Position numbers and translations under genes: made by a program. Source: Synergistes sp. (lineage in GTDB: Bacteria > Synergistota > Synergistia > Synergistales > Synergistaceae). From it: a stretch of DNA of 44,292 nt. The stretch covers positions 1-44,292 of the forward strand of contig JAFYJW010000001.1 of assembly GCA_017537925.1 (NCBI GenBank), in the 5' to 3' direction. The notes under the pieces are model-generated. The model was not told the DNA's origin, ran no database searches, and was given only the letters and a program-made list of their open reading frames with translations. Positions within the stretch are counted from its first letter, which is position 1. Each line of letters starts with the position of its first letter. Below, piece by piece: positions 9,091-34,906 of the stretch.

Positions 9091-10362
9091 TTACCGTTGA
9101 TCGGTATATGATATCTCCGCGCCGAGAGAGCGAAGCTTCTCAATAAGTTCTTCATATCCGCGCCATACATGATGCAGGCCGCTTACAGTGCTTTCTCCGG
9201 CGGCGGCAAGTGCAAGAAGTATCAGCGCGGCTCCGGCGCGCAGGTTCGAAGAGCAGACCTCGGCTCCTGAAAGCGCCGGGACGCCAGTAATTATTGCCAC
9301 ATTATCCTGCACTTCGATCTTCGCGCCCATCTTCTTGAATTCGTTTATATGCATAAGACGGGAATCGAAGACGCTTTCATGTATGACGCTCGTTCCTGAG
9401 GCAAGCGTAAGCGCCGCCATCATCTGCGGCTGGACGTCCGTCGGGAAACCGGGATAAGGCATGGTCTTGACAGTAATGCCTTTGAGAGGCCCGTCCGCTT
9501 TTGCTGTTATCTCGTCACCGAAAACATCTATCGCCGCGCCCGCTTCTTCAAGTTTGTTCAATATCGCTTCCATAAAGCCGGAAGAAATGCCCTTCACGGT
9601 GACGGCTCCTTTTGTGATGACGCCTGCTATGAGGTAAGTCGCAGCCTCGATGCGGTCAGGTATTATCTCGCCTGTCGCTGAATGCAGCGAAGCGGCTCCG
9701 TTTATGCGTATCGTCTCCGTACCGTCGCCTCTTACGGGAGAGCCCATCAGGCGCAGTATCTCGGCAAGGTTTACTATTTCCGGCTCTTTCGCAGCGTTTT
9801 CTATAAAGGTCGTTCCTTCGGCAAGCGCCGCTGCCATCATAAGATTTTCGGTAGCGCCGACCGACGGATAATCAAGCGTTATCGTGGTTCCCTTAAGACG
9901 CCCCGCGGCAGCTTCGACCGCACCTGACTTAAGTTCTATGTCGGCTCCCATTTTTGCGAGTCCTTTAAGATGGAAATCAAGCGGTCTGCTTCCCAGCACG
10001 CATCCGCCGGGCAGCGGCAGATGAGCGCGGCCGCAGCGTGCGACCAGAGGACCAAGCACAAGAGAGGATGCCCTCATCTTTCGTACAAGTTCGACAGGCG
10101 TTTCGGTCTTGAGTTTCTCAGGCACGTCGATCTTCATGCTGTGGCCGCTGAAAGTTACGGACGCGCCAAGATCGGAAAGAAGGTCGCACATCGTGCGTAT
10201 ATCATGCAGATCCGGCACTCCTTCAAGAGAGAGCGTGCCGTCTTTCAGAAGTATGGAGGCGGCCATTACAGGCAGAGCGGCATTCTTCGACCCCTGTACG
10301 TCCACGGTGCCGTGCAGTTTAGCGCCTCCCTTTATTTTCATTGTTTCAGGCATTATATTCAT
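9091..10362 (-). CDS. murA: UDP-N-acetylglucosamine 1-carboxyvinyltransferase
   Basis: This enzyme transfers enolpyruvate from PEP to UDP-GlcNAc, the first committed step of peptidoglycan synthesis in the cytoplasm. The 423-aa frame has the GSKNAALPVMAA active-site strand (Lys27) and the catalytic loop LPGGCVLGSRPLD with Cys121, so it should be fosfomycin-sensitive in principle. I choose the ATG at 10362, which has GAAGGAAA upstream; the frame is open to a TTG at 10395 inside the end of wecB. It lies between wecB and the P-loop/Asp23 gene. Confidence 0.96.
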   Translation of the reverse strand: MNIMPETMKIKGGAKLHGTVDVQGSKNAALPVMAASILLKDGTLSLEGVPDLHDIRTMCDLLSDLGASVTFSGHSMKIDVPEKLKTETPVELVRKMRASSLVLGPLVARCGRAHLPLPGGCVLGSRPLDFHLKGLAKMGADIELKSGAVEAAAGRLKGTTITLDYPSVGATENLMMAAALAEGTTFIENAAKEPEIVNLAEILRLMGSPVRGDGTETIRINGAASLHSATGEIIPDRIEAATYLIAGVITKGAVTVKGISSGFMEAILNKLEEAGAAIDVFGDEITAKADGPLKGITVKTMPYPGFPTDVQPQMMAALTLASGTSVIHESVFDSRLMHINEFKKMGAKIEVQDNVAIITGVPALSGAEVCSSNLRAGAALILLALAAAGESTVSGLHHVWRGYEELIEKLRSLGAEISYTDQR

Positions 10363-28113: not shown

Positions 28114-28806
28114 TCAGGCTCCTTCCTTAAAAAACGGACAGCGCTTCCTTAGGCACTGATTATTCCGCGAATGATAAGTGCATATGACTTCCCCTTTTTC
28201 CATTTTAACGCCGAAATTCTCTTCAACAAAGTCCACGGCGGCCAGTATCGACAGGAAAGAGTCTCTTTTGCAGCATCTCGGACCGCCGATCTCGCCTATT
28301 TCCGCAAGCGACTTTGAGGTCATTTTATGAGCCAGCCCGAAAGAATTTTTTGCAAGAGGAGTAGAGTTTGAGATGATCGCTGCGAACATGCCGCTGCTTA
28401 TCCCCGCGCCGCATGCTCCCCAGAATCCGCAGGCGCCTCCGGGAACCTTCCTGCCGCGGCTTATCATTTCGGCAAGCGCTTTTTCCAGATCAATATCGCC
28501 GCCCGCGTTTTTATAAGCCGTGAGCAGTGCGGCTCCCACCATAACATGATGTTCGGGGCCGTGCATATGGCAGAATGGCTGATTCATCATCTTTTCGATT
28601 ATTTGAACCGGGTTTTTGGACTCTTCATCGATACAGATCCCGACAATGCTGCCGAGCCCGGCCATGTGGCACTCATCGCAGACATAGTGACCGTTTACGC
28701 ATTCGGTCCTGCTCATCTCTTTTTTACCGCATATGGAGCATTCCATAAGAACGCCTGTTTCAAGGTATCTGAGCGGCGCTTTGCATATAAGACATTCTTC
28801 GTTCAT
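28114..28806 (-). CDS. Cysteine-rich zinc-ribbon protein, DUF5714-like, function unknown
   Basis: This 230-aa protein carries an N-terminal metal-binding module (CxxC at 5-8 and 23-26, C36, CxxC at 43-46), then a His-rich motif FCHMHGPEHH (C79, H80, H82, H86, H87), a glycine/cysteine loop GGACGFWGACGAG near 121-133, GGPRCCKR near 177, and a Cys-rich tail (CTYH...CLRKRCPFF). It resembles DUF5714 proteins as I recall them from anaerobes and methanogens. The density of Cys/His suggests an Fe-S or zinc protein. No transmembrane segment or signal peptide is clear. It follows a MATE transporter gene with a 67-bp gap on the same strand. Function is not assigned. Confidence 0.7.
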   Translation of the reverse strand: MNEECLICKAPLRYLETGVLMECSICGKKEMSRTECVNGHYVCDECHMAGLGSIVGICIDEESKNPVQIIEKMMNQPFCHMHGPEHHVMVGAALLTAYKNAGGDIDLEKALAEMISRGRKVPGGACGFWGACGAGISSGMFAAIISNSTPLAKNSFGLAHKMTSKSLAEIGEIGGPRCCKRDSFLSILAAVDFVEENFGVKMEKGEVICTYHSRNNQCLRKRCPFFKEGA

Positions 28807-28873: not shown

Positions 28874-30271
28874 TCAGGCTTTGCCCGGAGCTGAAGCGCC
28901 TTTCAGCTTCAGACCGCGAAGCAGCCTGAAGAGCATGATGAGTGAGACTAAAAGCGCGAAAGCCTCCGATATCGGAGAAGTCCAGATGACATAGAAATGA
29001 TCGAAGTTCGCTTTGATTATAAAAAGCATGATATTGTCGACCGTCCCCCTGTGGAGCGCCGAGAGCATAAAAGGCACGAGGCTCTTCCCCACCGCCTGAA
29101 ATACCGCGATAACCACAAAAGTTACCGAGTAGCACGGGATAGCAAGGCAGACGACACGCAGGAAGGAAGAGCCGTAAAATATAGTATCAGGGTCATTTAT
29201 AAAAAACGCCAGCAGCTCTTTCGAACAGGTATAAGAGACAGTCGAACTCATTATGGAAAACGCAACCGTACAAAAGGCGGAAAATATGATCACGCGCTTC
29301 ATGCGTTCATGCAGACCCGAGGAGAAGCAGTAGCCCACCAGCGGCAGCATGCCCTGCGTGACCCCCTGATTGACGGAGAAAGCAAGGGAATCTATCTTGC
29401 GGACTATACCCAGCCCCGCGATCGCGGCCCCTCCGCCAAAACCTGCTATAGTCGCGTTGAGCAGAGAGTGAGAGAGCATCGTGAACGCGATCATCGTGAA
29501 GCTCGGCAGGCCGCATTTTAATATTTCGCCCAGAAGCTGCGGGATATGCGAACCGAAATTCGGTCTTACCGACATTACACTCTCTTCGTCTCCGCCTCTG
29601 AAGATATACAAGAGAAAATATGCCAGAGATATGATATTCGACGCAGCAGTCGCAAGCGCGGCTCCGACTACTTCATTGCCCGGAGGAAGAAGCACGAACA
29701 TAAACAGAGGATCAAAAGCGATATTGAGAACAGCTCCCAATGTCAGGCCCATGGAAGCTTTTCCGCTGTTCCCGGTGGAGCGCACGACGTGAGCAAGGAC
29801 AGCCGCAAGCACGGTCGGCACGCCGCCCGCTACTACGGTGACCATGTTGTAGCGCACCGCATAGTCTATATAGCCGCCTTCGCCTCCGACAAGCGTAAGA
29901 AAAGAGCGGCCGAAGAAAAAGAGCAGAATGCCGTAAATTCCCGCAGCGGCTGCTGACGCCCATACGGACAGGCGGAAAGCGTATCTTGCGCCGCTGTGAT
30001 CTCCGCGCCCTAAAGAGCGGGAGATAACGCTTGCGGCTCCTATCCCGAAGAGATTGGAGATAGCGGTAAGCACATTGAAAATTATCATGCAGAGACTGAC
30101 TGCGGCAACGGCGTCAGGGTTGCCGGTCAGGCCGACGAACCATGTGTCCGAAATATTATAAATGACATGTACTATCTGGTTGGCTATAGCAGGAAGCACC
30201 ATCAGTGCAACCGCTTTAGGGACCGGCATCGAAGCAAAGAGTTCTTCATTTATCGTGCTGCTTCGCATCAT
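28874..30271 (-). CDS. MATE-family efflux transporter
   Basis: This 465-aa protein has about 12 hydrophobic helices in two homologous halves. The N-terminal half shows PAIANQIVHVIYNISDTWFVG and GIGAASVISRSLGRGD, typical of the Na+- or H+-driven DinF/NorM superfamily; the second half repeats the pattern (GFGGGAAIAGLGIVRKID, NQGVTQGMLPLVGY). The substrate is unknown. The start ATG at 30271 has GGTGATC just upstream, overlapping the end of the BASS gene, and a second ATG follows directly. It is probably cotranscribed with the BASS transporter and the cyclase-family hydrolase upstream. Confidence 0.92.
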   Translation of the reverse strand: MMRSSTINEELFASMPVPKAVALMVLPAIANQIVHVIYNISDTWFVGLTGNPDAVAAVSLCMIIFNVLTAISNLFGIGAASVISRSLGRGDHSGARYAFRLSVWASAAAAGIYGILLFFFGRSFLTLVGGEGGYIDYAVRYNMVTVVAGGVPTVLAAVLAHVVRSTGNSGKASMGLTLGAVLNIAFDPLFMFVLLPPGNEVVGAALATAASNIISLAYFLLYIFRGGDEESVMSVRPNFGSHIPQLLGEILKCGLPSFTMIAFTMLSHSLLNATIAGFGGGAAIAGLGIVRKIDSLAFSVNQGVTQGMLPLVGYCFSSGLHERMKRVIIFSAFCTVAFSIMSSTVSYTCSKELLAFFINDPDTIFYGSSFLRVVCLAIPCYSVTFVVIAVFQAVGKSLVPFMLSALHRGTVDNIMLFIIKANFDHFYVIWTSPISEAFALLVSLIMLFRLLRGLKLKGASAPGKA

Positions 30272-30276
30272 TTAGA

Positions 30277-31266
30277 TCACCGTTTCCCATGCCGGTCTTC
30301 ATGCACTTGAGACCGACATGGCAGTCCGCCCTGTTTTTCGTCCATCTTTATAAAAATATTCGCTAATATTGCACCCGATATATTATGCCAAACCGAAAAA
30401 ACAGCTCCCGGTACCGTTGCTGCCGCAAGGCTCCGGAAAGCGGTCCCTGCAAGTGATGTGGCAAGGCCTGAATTCTGCATCCCGACCTCTATCGACAGAG
30501 CTTTCTTTTTGCCCGGAGGCAGTTTTAGGAAAGCGCCCAGCAGCCAGCCGCTGGCATAACCCAGCAGATTATGAAGGATCACAACGATAAAGACCACTGC
30601 ACCGGTCTCTAAAATCCTTCCGGCATTATGTGATACGACAGCCGCCACGATCAATGTGATGGCCGCAACAGATATCAGCGGCAGACAGTCCTGGACCTTA
30701 CTTGTATATTTTCCCCACAGCCTGTTGATGACGAACCCCAAAGCAATAGGCACTATTACGACTTTGATTATGGATATGAACATGCTCACTACGTCAACGC
30801 TTACTGATGTGCGCAGAAGCAAATAGGTGATAAGAGGAGTCAAAAATGGAGCAAGAAGCGTATTGACGCTGGTCATGCCGACGGAAAGCGCAACATCTCC
30901 TCTGCTGAGATAAGTAATGACATTGCTCGACGTTCCTCCCGGGCAGGCGCCGACCAGTATCAGCCCTGCAAACATACCGGTATCAAGGCCGAATATCTTT
31001 CCCAGCAAATAAGCCAGAAGCGGCATGACAGTAAACTGGGCCGCGCAGCCGATAAAAATATCCAGGGGCCGTTTAAATACCGGCAGAAAATCTTCTGCTC
31101 TCAGCGTCAGCCCCATTCCGAACATAACTATCATCAAAAGATAATTCACCCATGAAAGCTGTATCCAAAGACACGAGTCGGGCGCGGCAAGAGCCAGCGC
31201 CGCAGCTGCCAGTACCACGACAGCCATATATTTTCCTATTATTGCACTTATACTTTTTAAAACCAT
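30277..31266 (-). CDS. Bile acid:sodium symporter (BASS) family transporter
   Basis: This 329-aa protein has nine to ten hydrophobic segments and the BASS signatures FGMGLTLRAEDF near 49-60 and ILVGACPGGTSSNVITYLSRGDVALSV near 103-129, which holds the sodium-binding crossover region. The family moves organic anions, including bile acids, pantoate and keto acids; the cargo here is unknown. It ends 5 bp before the MATE gene. Upstream at about 31301-31328 is a GC-rich hairpin (GCCCGCCG against CGGCGGGGC, one bulge) without a U-run. Confidence 0.9.
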   Translation of the reverse strand: MVLKSISAIIGKYMAVVVLAAAALALAAPDSCLWIQLSWVNYLLMIVMFGMGLTLRAEDFLPVFKRPLDIFIGCAAQFTVMPLLAYLLGKIFGLDTGMFAGLILVGACPGGTSSNVITYLSRGDVALSVGMTSVNTLLAPFLTPLITYLLLRTSVSVDVVSMFISIIKVVIVPIALGFVINRLWGKYTSKVQDCLPLISVAAITLIVAAVVSHNAGRILETGAVVFIVVILHNLLGYASGWLLGAFLKLPPGKKKALSIEVGMQNSGLATSLAGTAFRSLAAATVPGAVFSVWHNISGAILANIFIKMDEKQGGLPCRSQVHEDRHGKR

Positions 31267-31392: not shown

Positions 31393-32037
31393 TCACTCAA
31401 ACCACGCGACTGCGCGTACCGGCGCGCCGTCGCAGTTTTCGAGCTTCAGAGGAAAGCAGCCGAACCAGAAAAGCTCATTTCCGCACTGTTCAAGGTTGCA
31501 GAGATTTTCTATATTGAGTATGTCCTTATCTTTAAATAGCGCCCTATGTCTTGTCAGGCCTGCGTCCGCTATAGGATCCAGTCCTATAACGTCAAAGCCT
31601 ATGCCCTTATATGAACCCTTCAGGATATGGTCAAGAACCTCTTCGTCGATACATGGATAATCGTCAAAGTATGAGTCGCTGCCCCAGCGCTTGTCCCATC
31701 CCAGATTAAAGAGCAGAAAATCAGCTTTTTCCGTTCTATCTCCGTACTTTTTAAGCAGCTCCATCGTGATGGCTTCACCGTTCTTAAGCGACCGGCAGTC
31801 GATCACCAGGGCTTTTCCGATAAACTGCTCTGCAGAAAAAGACTCGAGCGTGGTCCTGCCTGCGTAAAGATGCGCGGGAGGGTCGACATGCGTGCCTGTA
31901 TGGGTGAACATCGTGACCTTTGTCTCTTTGAAGCCGTCGCGTTCGTAACTGTTGGCCTGCTCTAATTTTGGCGGCTCGGTTCCCGGGTAAACAGGCATGT
32001 TTTCCCTTATCGTATGCGTCAGATCTATTACCTTCAT
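31393..32037 (-). CDS. Cyclase-family metal-dependent hydrolase (kynurenine formamidase-like)
   Basis: This 214-aa protein carries the family metal motif HTGTHVDPPAH (HxGTHxDxPxH) near residues 46-56, an N-terminal IDLTHTIRENMPVYPG strand, and the GIDT-like segment IGFDVIGLDPIAD near 155. The family includes bacterial kynurenine formamidase, isatin hydrolase and other amidohydrolases; the substrate cannot be decided here. I choose the ATG at 32037 (matching the family N-terminus, GGAG upstream); an upstream frame to 32112 would add 25 basic residues that look non-coding. Neighbouring transporters suggest a small uptake/export and detoxification unit. Confidence 0.87.
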   Translation of the reverse strand: MKVIDLTHTIRENMPVYPGTEPPKLEQANSYERDGFKETKVTMFTHTGTHVDPPAHLYAGRTTLESFSAEQFIGKALVIDCRSLKNGEAITMELLKKYGDRTEKADFLLFNLGWDKRWGSDSYFDDYPCIDEEVLDHILKGSYKGIGFDVIGLDPIADAGLTRHRALFKDKDILNIENLCNLEQCGNELFWFGCFPLKLENCDGAPVRAVAWFE

Positions 32038-32130
32038 TACTCTCACACTCCGTAAAAGACATAAAAAACTGCCTCGGCGGAAAAGTTTTCTTCCGTCAGG
32101 GCATATTCGCAATGAGTGGTCATATGCTAT

Positions 32131-32833: not shown

Positions 32834-33913
32834 CTATTCGGTCCGTTTAAAGCGGACATGGTCCCCGCGGCTGACTATGAGCTGATATCCTGTTTTTGAA
32901 ACACGGGCAGACATGCATCCGATGCACGCCGCAGCGTCGTCTCCGATGCAGATCTTATTGTCATAAAGCAAGTATTTTTTACGGACTTCCCTCGGGGAAA
33001 GATTCGGCATCACAACATTTGCTCCTGCCAGGATCCCCTTTTCTCTGCCAAAGGCATCCACGCTTCCGAGGGCCGTTGTGGCCGGAAGAAGCACATCGGG
33101 CAGCATAAGCCTGATCACGGAGAGCAGACGTGTCGTCAGTTCTGCCGAACCGGCCCGGCATCCTGCGAATATCGTGTCATGATGAGGAATAAATGGTCCG
33201 ATCCCGACCATCTCCGGTCTTATCTTCTGCAGAAAGCGCAGATCTTTAACAAGATTCATGGTATCCTGCCCCGGAGAGCCTACCATCATCCCGCAGCCTA
33301 CCTGGTATCCTATTTCCTTTAAGTCCTCAAGGCACTGTATACGGTTTTTATAACTCATCGTTTCAGGATGAAGCATCTCATAATGTTTGGCGTCTGCGGT
33401 TTCATGACGCAGAAGATAGCGGTCCGCGCCTGCCTCAAACAATTTACGGTAACTTTCTTTTTCACGTTCACCGATCGATAAGGTTACAGCACAGTCCGGA
33501 TGGCGTTTTTTTATCTCCCGGATGAGCTGGACCATCACCGCATCCGTGTAGTACGGATCCTCTCCCCCCTGAAGGACAAAAGTCCGAAAACCCAGCTCAT
33601 AGCCGCGCCTGCAGCAGGATAAGATCTCTTCTTCACTTAAGCGGTAACGCTCGATATTTTTGTTGCTCTTCCTTATTCCGCAGTAATAGCAGTTATTCCT
33701 GCAATAATTGGTAAATTCGATCAGACCGCGCAGATATACGTCTTTGCCGTAATATTTTTCGCGAACGTTCCTGGCCTTCCCTGACAGATATTCATCGAAT
33801 TCAGGGTCATCGCACAGCAGGACAGACGCAAACTCGCTGTCGCTCAAATCGTTTGTTTCCTCAAGCTTATCTGCCAGTTGCCGAAGCTCTATCTTTTCTC
33901 CGCTGTTTATCAT
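32834..33913 (-). CDS. hydE: Radical SAM protein HydE ([FeFe]-hydrogenase H-cluster maturation)
   Basis: This 359-aa radical SAM enzyme has the AdoMet cluster motif CxxxCxxC (C71, C75, C78, in NYCRNNCYYCGIR), the BioB-like context RGLIEFTNYC, FVLQGGEDPYYT near 110, and SPGQDT near 214. At the C-terminus C322-x7-C330-x2-C333 reproduces the auxiliary cluster site seen in HydE. HydE makes part of the dithiomethylamine/Fe(CO)2(CN)2 subcluster together with HydF and HydG, which are not in the window. The ATG has GGAGGT about 12 bases upstream. It is followed by a strong terminator and lies 72 bp after the XdhC-family gene. Confidence 0.9.
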   Translation of the reverse strand: MINSGEKIELRQLADKLEETNDLSDSEFASVLLCDDPEFDEYLSGKARNVREKYYGKDVYLRGLIEFTNYCRNNCYYCGIRKSNKNIERYRLSEEEILSCCRRGYELGFRTFVLQGGEDPYYTDAVMVQLIREIKKRHPDCAVTLSIGEREKESYRKLFEAGADRYLLRHETADAKHYEMLHPETMSYKNRIQCLEDLKEIGYQVGCGMMVGSPGQDTMNLVKDLRFLQKIRPEMVGIGPFIPHHDTIFAGCRAGSAELTTRLLSVIRLMLPDVLLPATTALGSVDAFGREKGILAGANVVMPNLSPREVRKKYLLYDNKICIGDDAAACIGCMSARVSKTGYQLIVSRGDHVRFKRTE

Positions 33914-33985
33914 TATTTGAAATTTACCTCCGAAACAGATATCTCAACGTATATCAGCCGTTCATACGTTTTTTGGAGTACTCTG

Positions 33986-34906
33986 TCATTCAGCGCTCAG
34001 ATCGGTGATCAAGACCTTCATTTTACCGCCGCAGACCATCGCTTCTTCTTCGGCAATATCACTGCTCATATCGAGCGTCACGCTGATCTGCTCCCCGGTG
34101 CCTATCAAATGAAAGGCTTTTCTCTGCAGCTCGCCTTCGCCGCATCCGCCGCCGATCGTTCCGACTGTGCGGTTAAATTTATCCACCGCCATCATGGCGC
34201 CAGTTTTCACCGGCGTAGAGCCGATAGTCTCATACACCGTCAGCAGCGCTTTCGGCGTTTCGCCGCAGGCAACGAATTCAAGCAGGCGCAGATCCGCGTC
34301 CTCCTCTGCCAGTTTTGTCCCTTTAAAATAAGAGCTGATATCCTCCCTGCGGCACTTTATCAGCTCGGCAAGGATCGAAACTGCAATTTCCTTTACTGTA
34401 AGGGCGTTTATATCAACGCCGATCGGGGCATGGATACGCTCAAGATCTTTTCTGGCAAAGCCTTCGTTCTCCAGCAGATCCTTCAGCATTATCACTCTGC
34501 GCTTTGACCCGAGCATTCCGAGATAACGCGGGAACGTACCCGGAAGAATCGCCCTCAGGCAATCCGCATCATAGCGATGTCCGCGCGTGATCACCGCGAC
34601 ATAATCATGTTCGCTGATACACAACTGAGCAATCGCATTCTGAAAGCTGTCGCATATTATCTTTCTGGCATTCGGAAACAATGTGCTGTTAGCGAAGACT
34701 GGTCTGTCGTCGACCACTGTAACGGCAAAGCCCAGGTCATCTGCATATCTGCAGAGAGGCTGCGCGATATTGCCGCATCCAAGCAGAATAAAGCGCTCCT
34801 GCCGGCAGAAATTGCGGATAAATGTCTTCCCGTCAGCCTCAAACGACAGAGAAGCTGACCCGCCGGCAGAAATGGACCGATATATTCTTTTAAGGTCAGA
34901 GAGCAT
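33986..34906 (-). CDS. XdhC/CoxI-family molybdenum-hydroxylase accessory protein with reversed domain order
   Basis: This 306-aa protein carries both XdhC signature parts. A Rossmann-type XdhC_C domain comes first: FILLGCGNIAQPLCRYADD (39-57), VVDDRP, YVAVITRGH, YLGMLGSKRR, and RIHAPIGVDINALTVKEIAVSILAE to about 185. The XdhC_CoxI motif is at the end: PVKTGAMMAVDKF (233-245) and GTIGGGCGEGEL, closing with MVCGGKMKVLI. In typical XdhC the CoxI segment is N-terminal. Known XdhC binds molybdenum cofactor and inserts or sulfurates it in xanthine-dehydrogenase-like enzymes; none is encoded nearby. The ATG has GGAGG eight bases upstream. Confidence 0.85.
   Translation of the reverse strand: MLSDLKRIYRSISAGGSASLSFEADGKTFIRNFCRQERFILLGCGNIAQPLCRYADDLGFAVTVVDDRPVFANSTLFPNARKIICDSFQNAIAQLCISEHDYVAVITRGHRYDADCLRAILPGTFPRYLGMLGSKRRVIMLKDLLENEGFARKDLERIHAPIGVDINALTVKEIAVSILAELIKCRREDISSYFKGTKLAEEDADLRLLEFVACGETPKALLTVYETIGSTPVKTGAMMAVDKFNRTVGTIGGGCGEGELQRKAFHLIGTGEQISVTLDMSSDIAEEEAMVCGGKMKVLITDLSAE

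Follow-up and report, generated by a model that had tools for sequence, protein, structure and literature searches.

A conserved cysteine- and histidine-rich DUF5714 protein shared among gut anaerobes, a candidate accessory protein for redox or metal(loid) handling

The window, here meaning the whole 44,292-nucleotide stretch of Synergistes sp. DNA that was analysed, carries a DUF5714 gene at 28114..28806 on the minus strand. It is read from 28806 to 28114 with an ATG start and a TGA stop and encodes 230 aa; the plus strand of 28114-28806 is interrupted by stops in frame 1. The protein (P0001) contains 16 Cys and 8 His, so the Cys/His-rich ORF called here by the sequence-only reading is real. 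Its Cys fraction of 7.0% compares with 0-3.6% in the 18 other window genes measured and is the highest among 36 non-overlapping window ORFs of at least 150 aa. The description of the protein as DUF5714-like also holds. Pfam PF18978 matches residues 54-226 at 240.4 bits against a gathering cut-off of 26.2 (E 1e-71) and is covered over the whole model (positions 1-173 of 173), which makes the protein a DUF5714 member. Both GC (0.502) and GC3 (0.558) of the gene resemble those of neighbour genes, hence composition shows no sign of recent foreign origin. Close relatives (the best 80 of 582) end in TGA (49), TAA (27), or TAG (4), in 79 of 80 cases within 21 codons of the match end. Given these mixed stops, the TGA of the window gene is an ordinary end.

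The Cys and His residues are distributed over five segments, all encoded on the minus strand. An N-terminal zinc-ribbon-like segment (residues 5-47, 28666..28794) comprises C5, C8, C23, C26, C36, H40, C43, C46, and H47, and thus holds the seven or more N-terminal Cys noted earlier together with two His. It is invariant in the close clade and gives a weak match to the ClpX C4 zinc finger PF06689 (15.9 bits, below the cut-off of 27). The dense FCHMHGPEHH motif that had been singled out is present at residues 78-87 (28546..28575) and contributes the His cluster H82, H86, and H87. Downstream of it, GACGFWGACGAG (residues 124-135, 28402..28437) carries C126 and C132, GGPRCCKR (residues 174-181, 28264..28287) carries the C178-C179 pair, and a C-terminal Cys loop (residues 209-223, 28138..28182) carries C209, C218, and C223; these are the Cys-rich loops said to continue to the end of the protein. 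AlphaFold predicts two strands in residues 11-36 followed by helices for the whole window protein (pLDDT 84.8, pTM 0.81), and an all-helical structure for the core alone (pLDDT 88.1, pTM 0.88). The Cys and His ligands would be expected to cluster in space, with C178-C179 as the putative reactive pair.

Conservation was assessed at two depths. The close set consists of the best 80 of 582 relatives from a genome-contig scan, at 70-80% identity, giving 81 rows with the window protein. All 16 Cys are kept in 81/81 rows and six of the eight His are invariant, a retention which, judged from this alignment, is far beyond chance. Alignments A1 and A5 covered 69 and 49 of the 80 close loci, respectively. 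The diverse set comprises 36 members hand-picked for spread, 28-72% identical to the window protein, which is itself included. Here the seven core Cys (C126, C132, C178, C179, C209, C218, C223) are kept in 36/36. The family alignment that had been proposed as a check therefore finds invariant Cys at both depths. The His cluster is less strictly maintained, with H87 in 34/36, H86 in 31/36, and H82 in 30/36, and E85 is found in 24/36; some members have no H82 or H86 yet keep all seven core Cys. As C79 and H80 occur in only 3/36 and 6/36, FCHMHGPEHH is mainly a feature of the close clade. The N-terminal ribbon divides the family into 23 long members with it and 13 short members without. The earlier suggestion of more than one metal site thus survives as a structural idea only, in that the ribbon (missing in 13/36) and the core (36/36) are separable Cys/His sets that could each bind a metal. 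The same-genus genome G047 (loci L005 and L098) carries a ribbon-less DUF5714 and not the long form of the window. Taken as a whole, the window protein is an ordinary, well-conserved member, and the interest resides in the DUF5714 family.

Upstream of the gene in reading direction lie XdhC-like, HydE, EamA, cyclase, BASS, and MATE genes, and downstream lies a gene for an Hpt protein. MATE (28874-30271), BASS (30277-31266, PanS-like but below cut-off), and the cyclase (31393-32112) share the minus strand with DUF5714, which begins 67 bp past the MATE stop; its position downstream of these three genes had been described correctly. At 32834-34906, also on the minus strand, HydE (574.9 vs. a cut-off of 254.6) lies directly downstream of the XdhC-family gene in reading order, and the latter resembles an aldehyde-oxidoreductase maturation factor (233.4 vs. 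a cut-off of 350). No ArsR, ArsM, ArsC, or ACR3 was found among the eight window neighbours scanned, and the window BASS scores 25.1 against the acr3 cut-off of 282.8.

This layout had been taken to fit an enzyme whose product is exported, an idea that did not survive comparison with close relatives. Neighbour homologues were sought by blastp (E<=1e-6) around the best 80 of 582 relatives, where many contigs are short and the counts are lower bounds. Homologues of the window BASS, cyclase, EamA, HydE, and XdhC were found at 0/80 loci and of MATE at 5/80. The sole true MATE orthologue of the five, 84% identical, lies directly upstream of DUF5714 in a same-genus genome (L015). The remaining four are only 23-25% identical; one of these (24%, in L080) adjoins DUF5714 on its other side and three are further off. 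A further 66 loci yielded MATE in three, one being the same-genus contig again, BASS in one, and the cyclase in none. Clustering placed MATE-type proteins in 6/80 loci (best 80 of 582), four of them at most three genes away. Taken as raw counts, these figures could still hide a weak tendency of MATE genes to lie beside DUF5714. Neighbour families were counted for 88 of 89 listed neighbours, leaving aside 14 Bacteroidales loci and proteins below 150 aa and covering the first 25 of 100 Pfam and of 57 PHROG families. The commonest Pfam family among these 88 adjacent proteins, a generic methyltransferase domain, has five members, and the neighbourhood of the close clade is without a strongly recurring family. 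Of the two things that would have spoken against the earlier reading together, variable Cys/His residues were not seen, while a neighbourhood that is not conserved was (BASS 0/80, cyclase 0/80). Layout was rejected as functional evidence, and the transporter neighbours look incidental.

One recurrent arrangement was found in the close clade, for which the marker set comprised 85 loci after 7 of 92 proved to be without a called target. A CrcB homologue occupies the position immediately upstream (-1) of DUF5714 in 12/85 loci, all from one Bacteroidota lineage (L022, L024, L032, L034, L035, L036, L041, L043, L054, L057, L073, L086; profile-confirmed for L032 only). The spacing is 6-12 bp in 11 of these, and the genes overlap in one; clustering had yielded 11 such loci. 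A ZIP transporter lies near DUF5714 in eight loci, and in the CrcB loci the downstream region often holds, on the opposite strand, genes for a ZIP transporter and a methyltransferase. A link to fluoride was considered and rejected, CrcB being confined to one Bacteroidota lineage and six CrcB-DUF5714 loci containing no riboswitch at gathering score.

Counting matches at E<=0.001, with the known-positive centre genome included in each sample and some genomes present in more than one, DUF5714 was found in 30/146 genomes of the window's phylum, 29/293 of the class of Acetatifactor, 23/200 of the class of Succiniclasticum, 45/247 of the order of G413, 4/247 of the phylum of a Muribaculaceae genome, and 2/349 of the phylum of Ruminobacter. 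Control genomes gave 0/14. Among the best 80 of 582 relatives, the 230-aa form occurs in records named Synergistota, Clostridia, Negativicutes, and Bacteroidales, and also in the gammaproteobacteria Ruminobacter amylophilus DSM 1361 and Succinimonas amylolytica DSM 2873.

Identity to the window protein was compared with that of ClpX. A same-genus copy is 80.2% identical (ClpX 93%), two copies from the same family 68.0 and 69.2% (ClpX 57 and 71%), and one from the same order 72.7% (ClpX 61%). Corresponding values are 75.6 and 73.3% for Bacteroidota (ClpX 52 and 54%), 71.8% for Ruminobacter (ClpX 55%), and 72.2% for Acetatifactor (ClpX 59%). Overall, copies in Bacteroidota, Gammaproteobacteria, and Bacillota are 71-76% identical where their ClpX is 52-60%. 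Measured in this way, DUF5714 identity does not track kinship. The DUF5714 tree is weak in its inner branches, and its bootstrap is unsettled. The Synergistota rows require three changes of label on it, of which well-supported branches impose just one, and the starred branches allow a single origin of these rows. The tree alone hence proves nothing on transfer.

Mobile carriers of the gene were found. The Selenomonas ruminantium plasmid pSRC1 carries a copy that is 69.8% identical. Prophage copies are present in Ruminobacter (L060:6479-7276) and Succinimonas (L071:9905-10702), reversed between the terminase large subunit (phrog_9) and portal (phrog_12) genes, beyond which lie those for protease, major head, and tail. 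The two prophages share 8.86 kb at 92% identity, and their DUF5714 is moron-like cargo in one phage lineage. No head or tail homologues of this prophage were found near the other DUF5714 loci searched, five of which match only two other prophage proteins, and 50,697 phage records contained no DUF5714 match. Scans of IMG/VR with two close queries matched one contig, the same as L060. Together, the identity pattern and the carriers appear to fit horizontal transfer of DUF5714 between phyla.

In the literature searched, no experimental function for DUF5714 was found; the only entry, in one review (PMC13188914), is a table row for MbdU, listed with motif CU and two Sec. The reference list of the same review gives Haft and Tolstoy 2025 as the MbdU source paper. 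MbdU (NF045648, 'metal-binding double selenoprotein') is the only strong NCBIfam match of the window protein, at 142.3 bits against a cut-off of 600. PF18978 covers the full-length core of the window protein and begins after the ribbon; MbdU aligns with residues 3-228 (model 39-268), ribbon included, and the model is matched by all 36 diverse members at E<=0.01. MbdU differs in length, with 468 model positions against 230 aa, and in its two selenocysteines, as the window gene has no in-frame TGA before its stop and codons 178 and 179 are both TGC. The Sec of MbdU would sit at the position of C179. At ~9869-10090 (minus) of L335, a 5'-truncated DUF5714 copy reads GGSRC-stop-KRN, with a TGA exactly at the C179 position. 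This is a possible selenocysteine remnant and a weak lead, given that the copy is broken and chance could have placed the TGA there. Two other candidate selenoprotein copies were dismissed, L182 as a degraded copy and L241 as a false match.

A more distant likeness points to PF09719 (C_GCAxxG_C_C), named 'putative redox-active protein' in Pfam. It is the most frequent second family among the 36 diverse members, matching nine at E<=0.1 (best 1.2e-4), and the related search with TIGR01909 matched two at E<=0.01. Over 69 columns, hhalign aligns DUF5714 with C_GCAxxG_C_C (E 2.5e-4, probability 43%) in such a way that the CGA and CC motifs are matched up, GACGFWGACGAG being the part that aligns with CGA. 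A genome search with PF09719 also reached three DUF5714 genes (E 7.2e-5 to 8.5e-4, below cut-off). The window protein itself has no PF09719 match at E<=0.1 (gathering cut-off 27 bits). Both families have a CGA and a CC motif, in matching order, whereas DUF5714 has extra Cys/His ligands and the ribbon. From these profile comparisons, DUF5714 is probably a distant relative of C_GCAxxG_C_C redox proteins, a kinship that is unproven.

The C_GCAxxG_C_C profile has a sole PDB match at E<=0.1, the split-Soret cytochrome c 1h21 (E 3.5e-4); the phrase 'a novel iron centre' is used of it in a title cited by PMC5701242. This protein is reached only via C_GCAxxG_C_C and is not matched by the DUF5714 profile. 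Fold searches gave no match at E<=0.001 in the PDB (whole or core model) or in BFVD (core). Split-Soret and C_GCAxxG_C_C structures are absent from the fold-match lists, an absence that excludes nothing. The top VIA rows were IRG1/cis-aconitate decarboxylases (Z 4.0, rmsd 4.3 A, 139 aligned; Z 4.6, rmsd 5.4 A, 148 aligned), a likeness that was set aside as a common helical arrangement.

Neighbours of more distant relatives were studied in a discovery set of 33 loci and by a test written beforehand and applied to 32 newly fetched loci, 29 of which have a called target (L321, L327, and L335 do not). Left out of the discovery set were the degraded L181 and L182, the closer L183 and L184, and L224-L227, L238, and L239, which are without a called target. 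The marker queries were chosen because they had been seen near DUF5714, and the ArsM marker is loose. In the test loci an arsenic marker lies within 4 kb in seven and at 4-10 kb in three, with 22/29 having none within 4 kb; five of the seven positives (L304-L307, L309) are one lineage. The contig of L306 is as long as plasmid match H3, whose species is also that of discovery locus L166, and the test set is therefore not fully independent. Inner and outer densities in the test loci are 28.1 vs. 6.9 per Mb for ArsM and 23.4 vs. 3.5 per Mb for ArsR, and the discovery loci have an arsenic marker in nine inner vs. two outer cases.

Arsenic genes above curated cut-offs lie within 4 kb of DUF5714 in four lineages outside the window clade. 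In L306, ArsM, ACR3, and an ArsR-type regulator pass; in L323, ACR3 and an ArsR-type regulator pass. L232 has the order arsR-acr3-DUF5714 with ACR3 above its curated cut-off, and in L221 an arsenosugar-type ArsM (456.9 vs. a cut-off of 400) adjoins DUF5714. Other loci show arsR-DUF5714-LMW phosphatase (L167) or ArsM-like, radical SAM/SPASM-like, and Trx-TrxR genes (L171). The 'ArsM' marker of L228 is a DVU_1556-family methyltransferase (211.7 vs. a cut-off of 155) and that of L231 a 129-aa fragment. On the family tree the arsenic label needs 10 changes, and L221 and L222 come out closest to the window clade, a placement that is modestly supported. Within the window clade no arsenic genes were found beside DUF5714; 7/85 loci match the loose ArsM marker, all of one Bacteroidales locus type, and the one scanned (L024) has no NCBIfam family at E<=1e-25 and only generic Pfam methyltransferase domains. 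Neither TrsS nor ACR3 markers were seen within 10 kb in this clade. An arsenic role for the window clade, as far as its neighbours in these 85 loci could indicate one, was discarded.

Radical SAM enzymes form another set of neighbours. TrsS, a radical SAM (seleno)protein, lies within 4 kb of DUF5714 outside the window clade in L176 (542), L318 (547.6), L175 (545.9), L332 (504.9), and L314 (492.8), all above the cut-off of 490; L175 and L332 also have second copies, which score under this value. TrsS densities, inner vs. outer, are 18.7 vs. 3.5 per Mb in the test loci and 11.9 vs. 6.4 in the discovery loci. In two Pfam-confirmed cases, L169:8201-10576 (791 aa) and L319:6469-8604 (711 aa), a radical SAM domain is fused to the ribbon and DUF5714. 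An ArsM-like methyltransferase gene precedes each fusion and a thioredoxin-thioredoxin-reductase-like gene follows it; L319 groups with L169 on the family tree. Lipoyl-domain genes adjoin mostly ribbon-less DUF5714 (three inner and none outer in each set). DUF5714 is thus not an arsenic gene as such and instead resembles a module employed repeatedly next to radical, thiol, and methyl systems of several kinds.

The reading we favour, tentatively and at somewhat less than an even chance, is that DUF5714 is a cysteine-pair redox or metal(loid)-handling accessory protein and not an enzyme with an exported product. The sampled copies have in common the seven core Cys and, for the most part, the His cluster. 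Read most simply, a reactive Cys pair would be held close to other thiolates or to a metal and form a reductant or a metal(loid)-binding site for use by partners. In this small protein the seven invariant Cys and the His cluster belong to the predicted all-helical core, and the ribbon of the long form probably serves structure or partner binding. The C178-C179 pair would be the reactive centre, perhaps with selenocysteine in some relatives, and the remaining core Cys/His may hold it as a redox couple or as an Fe-S/Zn centre. The protein could then pass electrons to, or bind, a thiophilic metal(loid), methyl-transfer, or radical SAM partner. In the window lineage the gene would stand alone and be portable, passing between anaerobes of the gut and rumen and presumably helping them with stress or detoxification. 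Any redox chemistry or bound metal is putative, as is a role in detoxification.

A catalytic metalloenzyme (hydrolase, lyase, or methyl-transfer) would place the active site at H82/E85/H86/H87 and core Cys, with the CC pair as a ligand. We regard this as unlikely. In its favour, the His cluster is kept in 30-34/36 members, and corrinoid and methyltransferase genes lie nearby in some lineages; corrinoid markers in the discovery loci stand at 19.8 per Mb inner and 9.5 per Mb outer. However, the test loci gave corrinoid markers in 0 inner and 4 outer cases and MtaA at 18.7 vs. 17.4 per Mb, and the partial retention of E85 and the seven Cys of members lacking H82 or H86 also argue against it. A metallochaperone or a zinc/iron-sulphur sensor would bind a metal and deliver or report it via the ribbon, performing no chemistry of its own. 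The ribbon and core ligands, the ZIP and CrcB neighbours in Bacteroidota, and one HypA-family match in each of two 36-member scans (E 0.073 and E 0.007) are consistent with such a role. It nonetheless seems rather improbable, given that 13/36 members have no ribbon and that the TGA at the CC pair of L335, if selenocysteine, suggests reactivity over storage. A metalloenzyme of a biosynthetic or catabolic operon with the cyclase and the BASS and MATE exporters is very improbable. The shared strand, the 67 bp spacing, the adjacent orthologue in the same genus, and the few MATE homologues favour it, but the lack of BASS and cyclase in close relatives and the low identity of most of those MATE homologues largely refute it.

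A bolder extension of the accessory-protein reading, which we consider speculative and rather unlikely as a whole, would make DUF5714 a branch, so far unrecognised, of the C_GCAxxG_C_C thiol/selenol redox superfamily. It would serve radical SAM, metalloid, and methyl biochemistry in anaerobes. Its partners would be TrsS or SPASM radical SAM enzymes (some even fused to it) together with ArsM-like methyltransferases and a thioredoxin-reductase module, and CC or CU would be the reducing centre. The window clade would be its stand-alone version, carried by phages and plasmids and shielding gut anaerobes from a thiophilic toxicant. Copies of the window clade occur across several gut phyla and show no change in their Cys, and some relatives have arsenic genes or radical SAM enzymes. 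A known function would account for a trait that seems to be gained time and again by anaerobes of the rumen and gut, and the ligand map yields direct mutants for testing.

Some smaller features of the distant loci were also recorded. A small lipoyl-domain gene lies near DUF5714 in L177, L228, L317, L320, and L324, and a lipoate-protein-ligase-like gene in L229 and L325. In L179 and L180 a divergent DUF5714 lies beside NifH-like and nitrogenase alpha/NifE-like genes, which in L180, the one scanned, score below all cut-offs.
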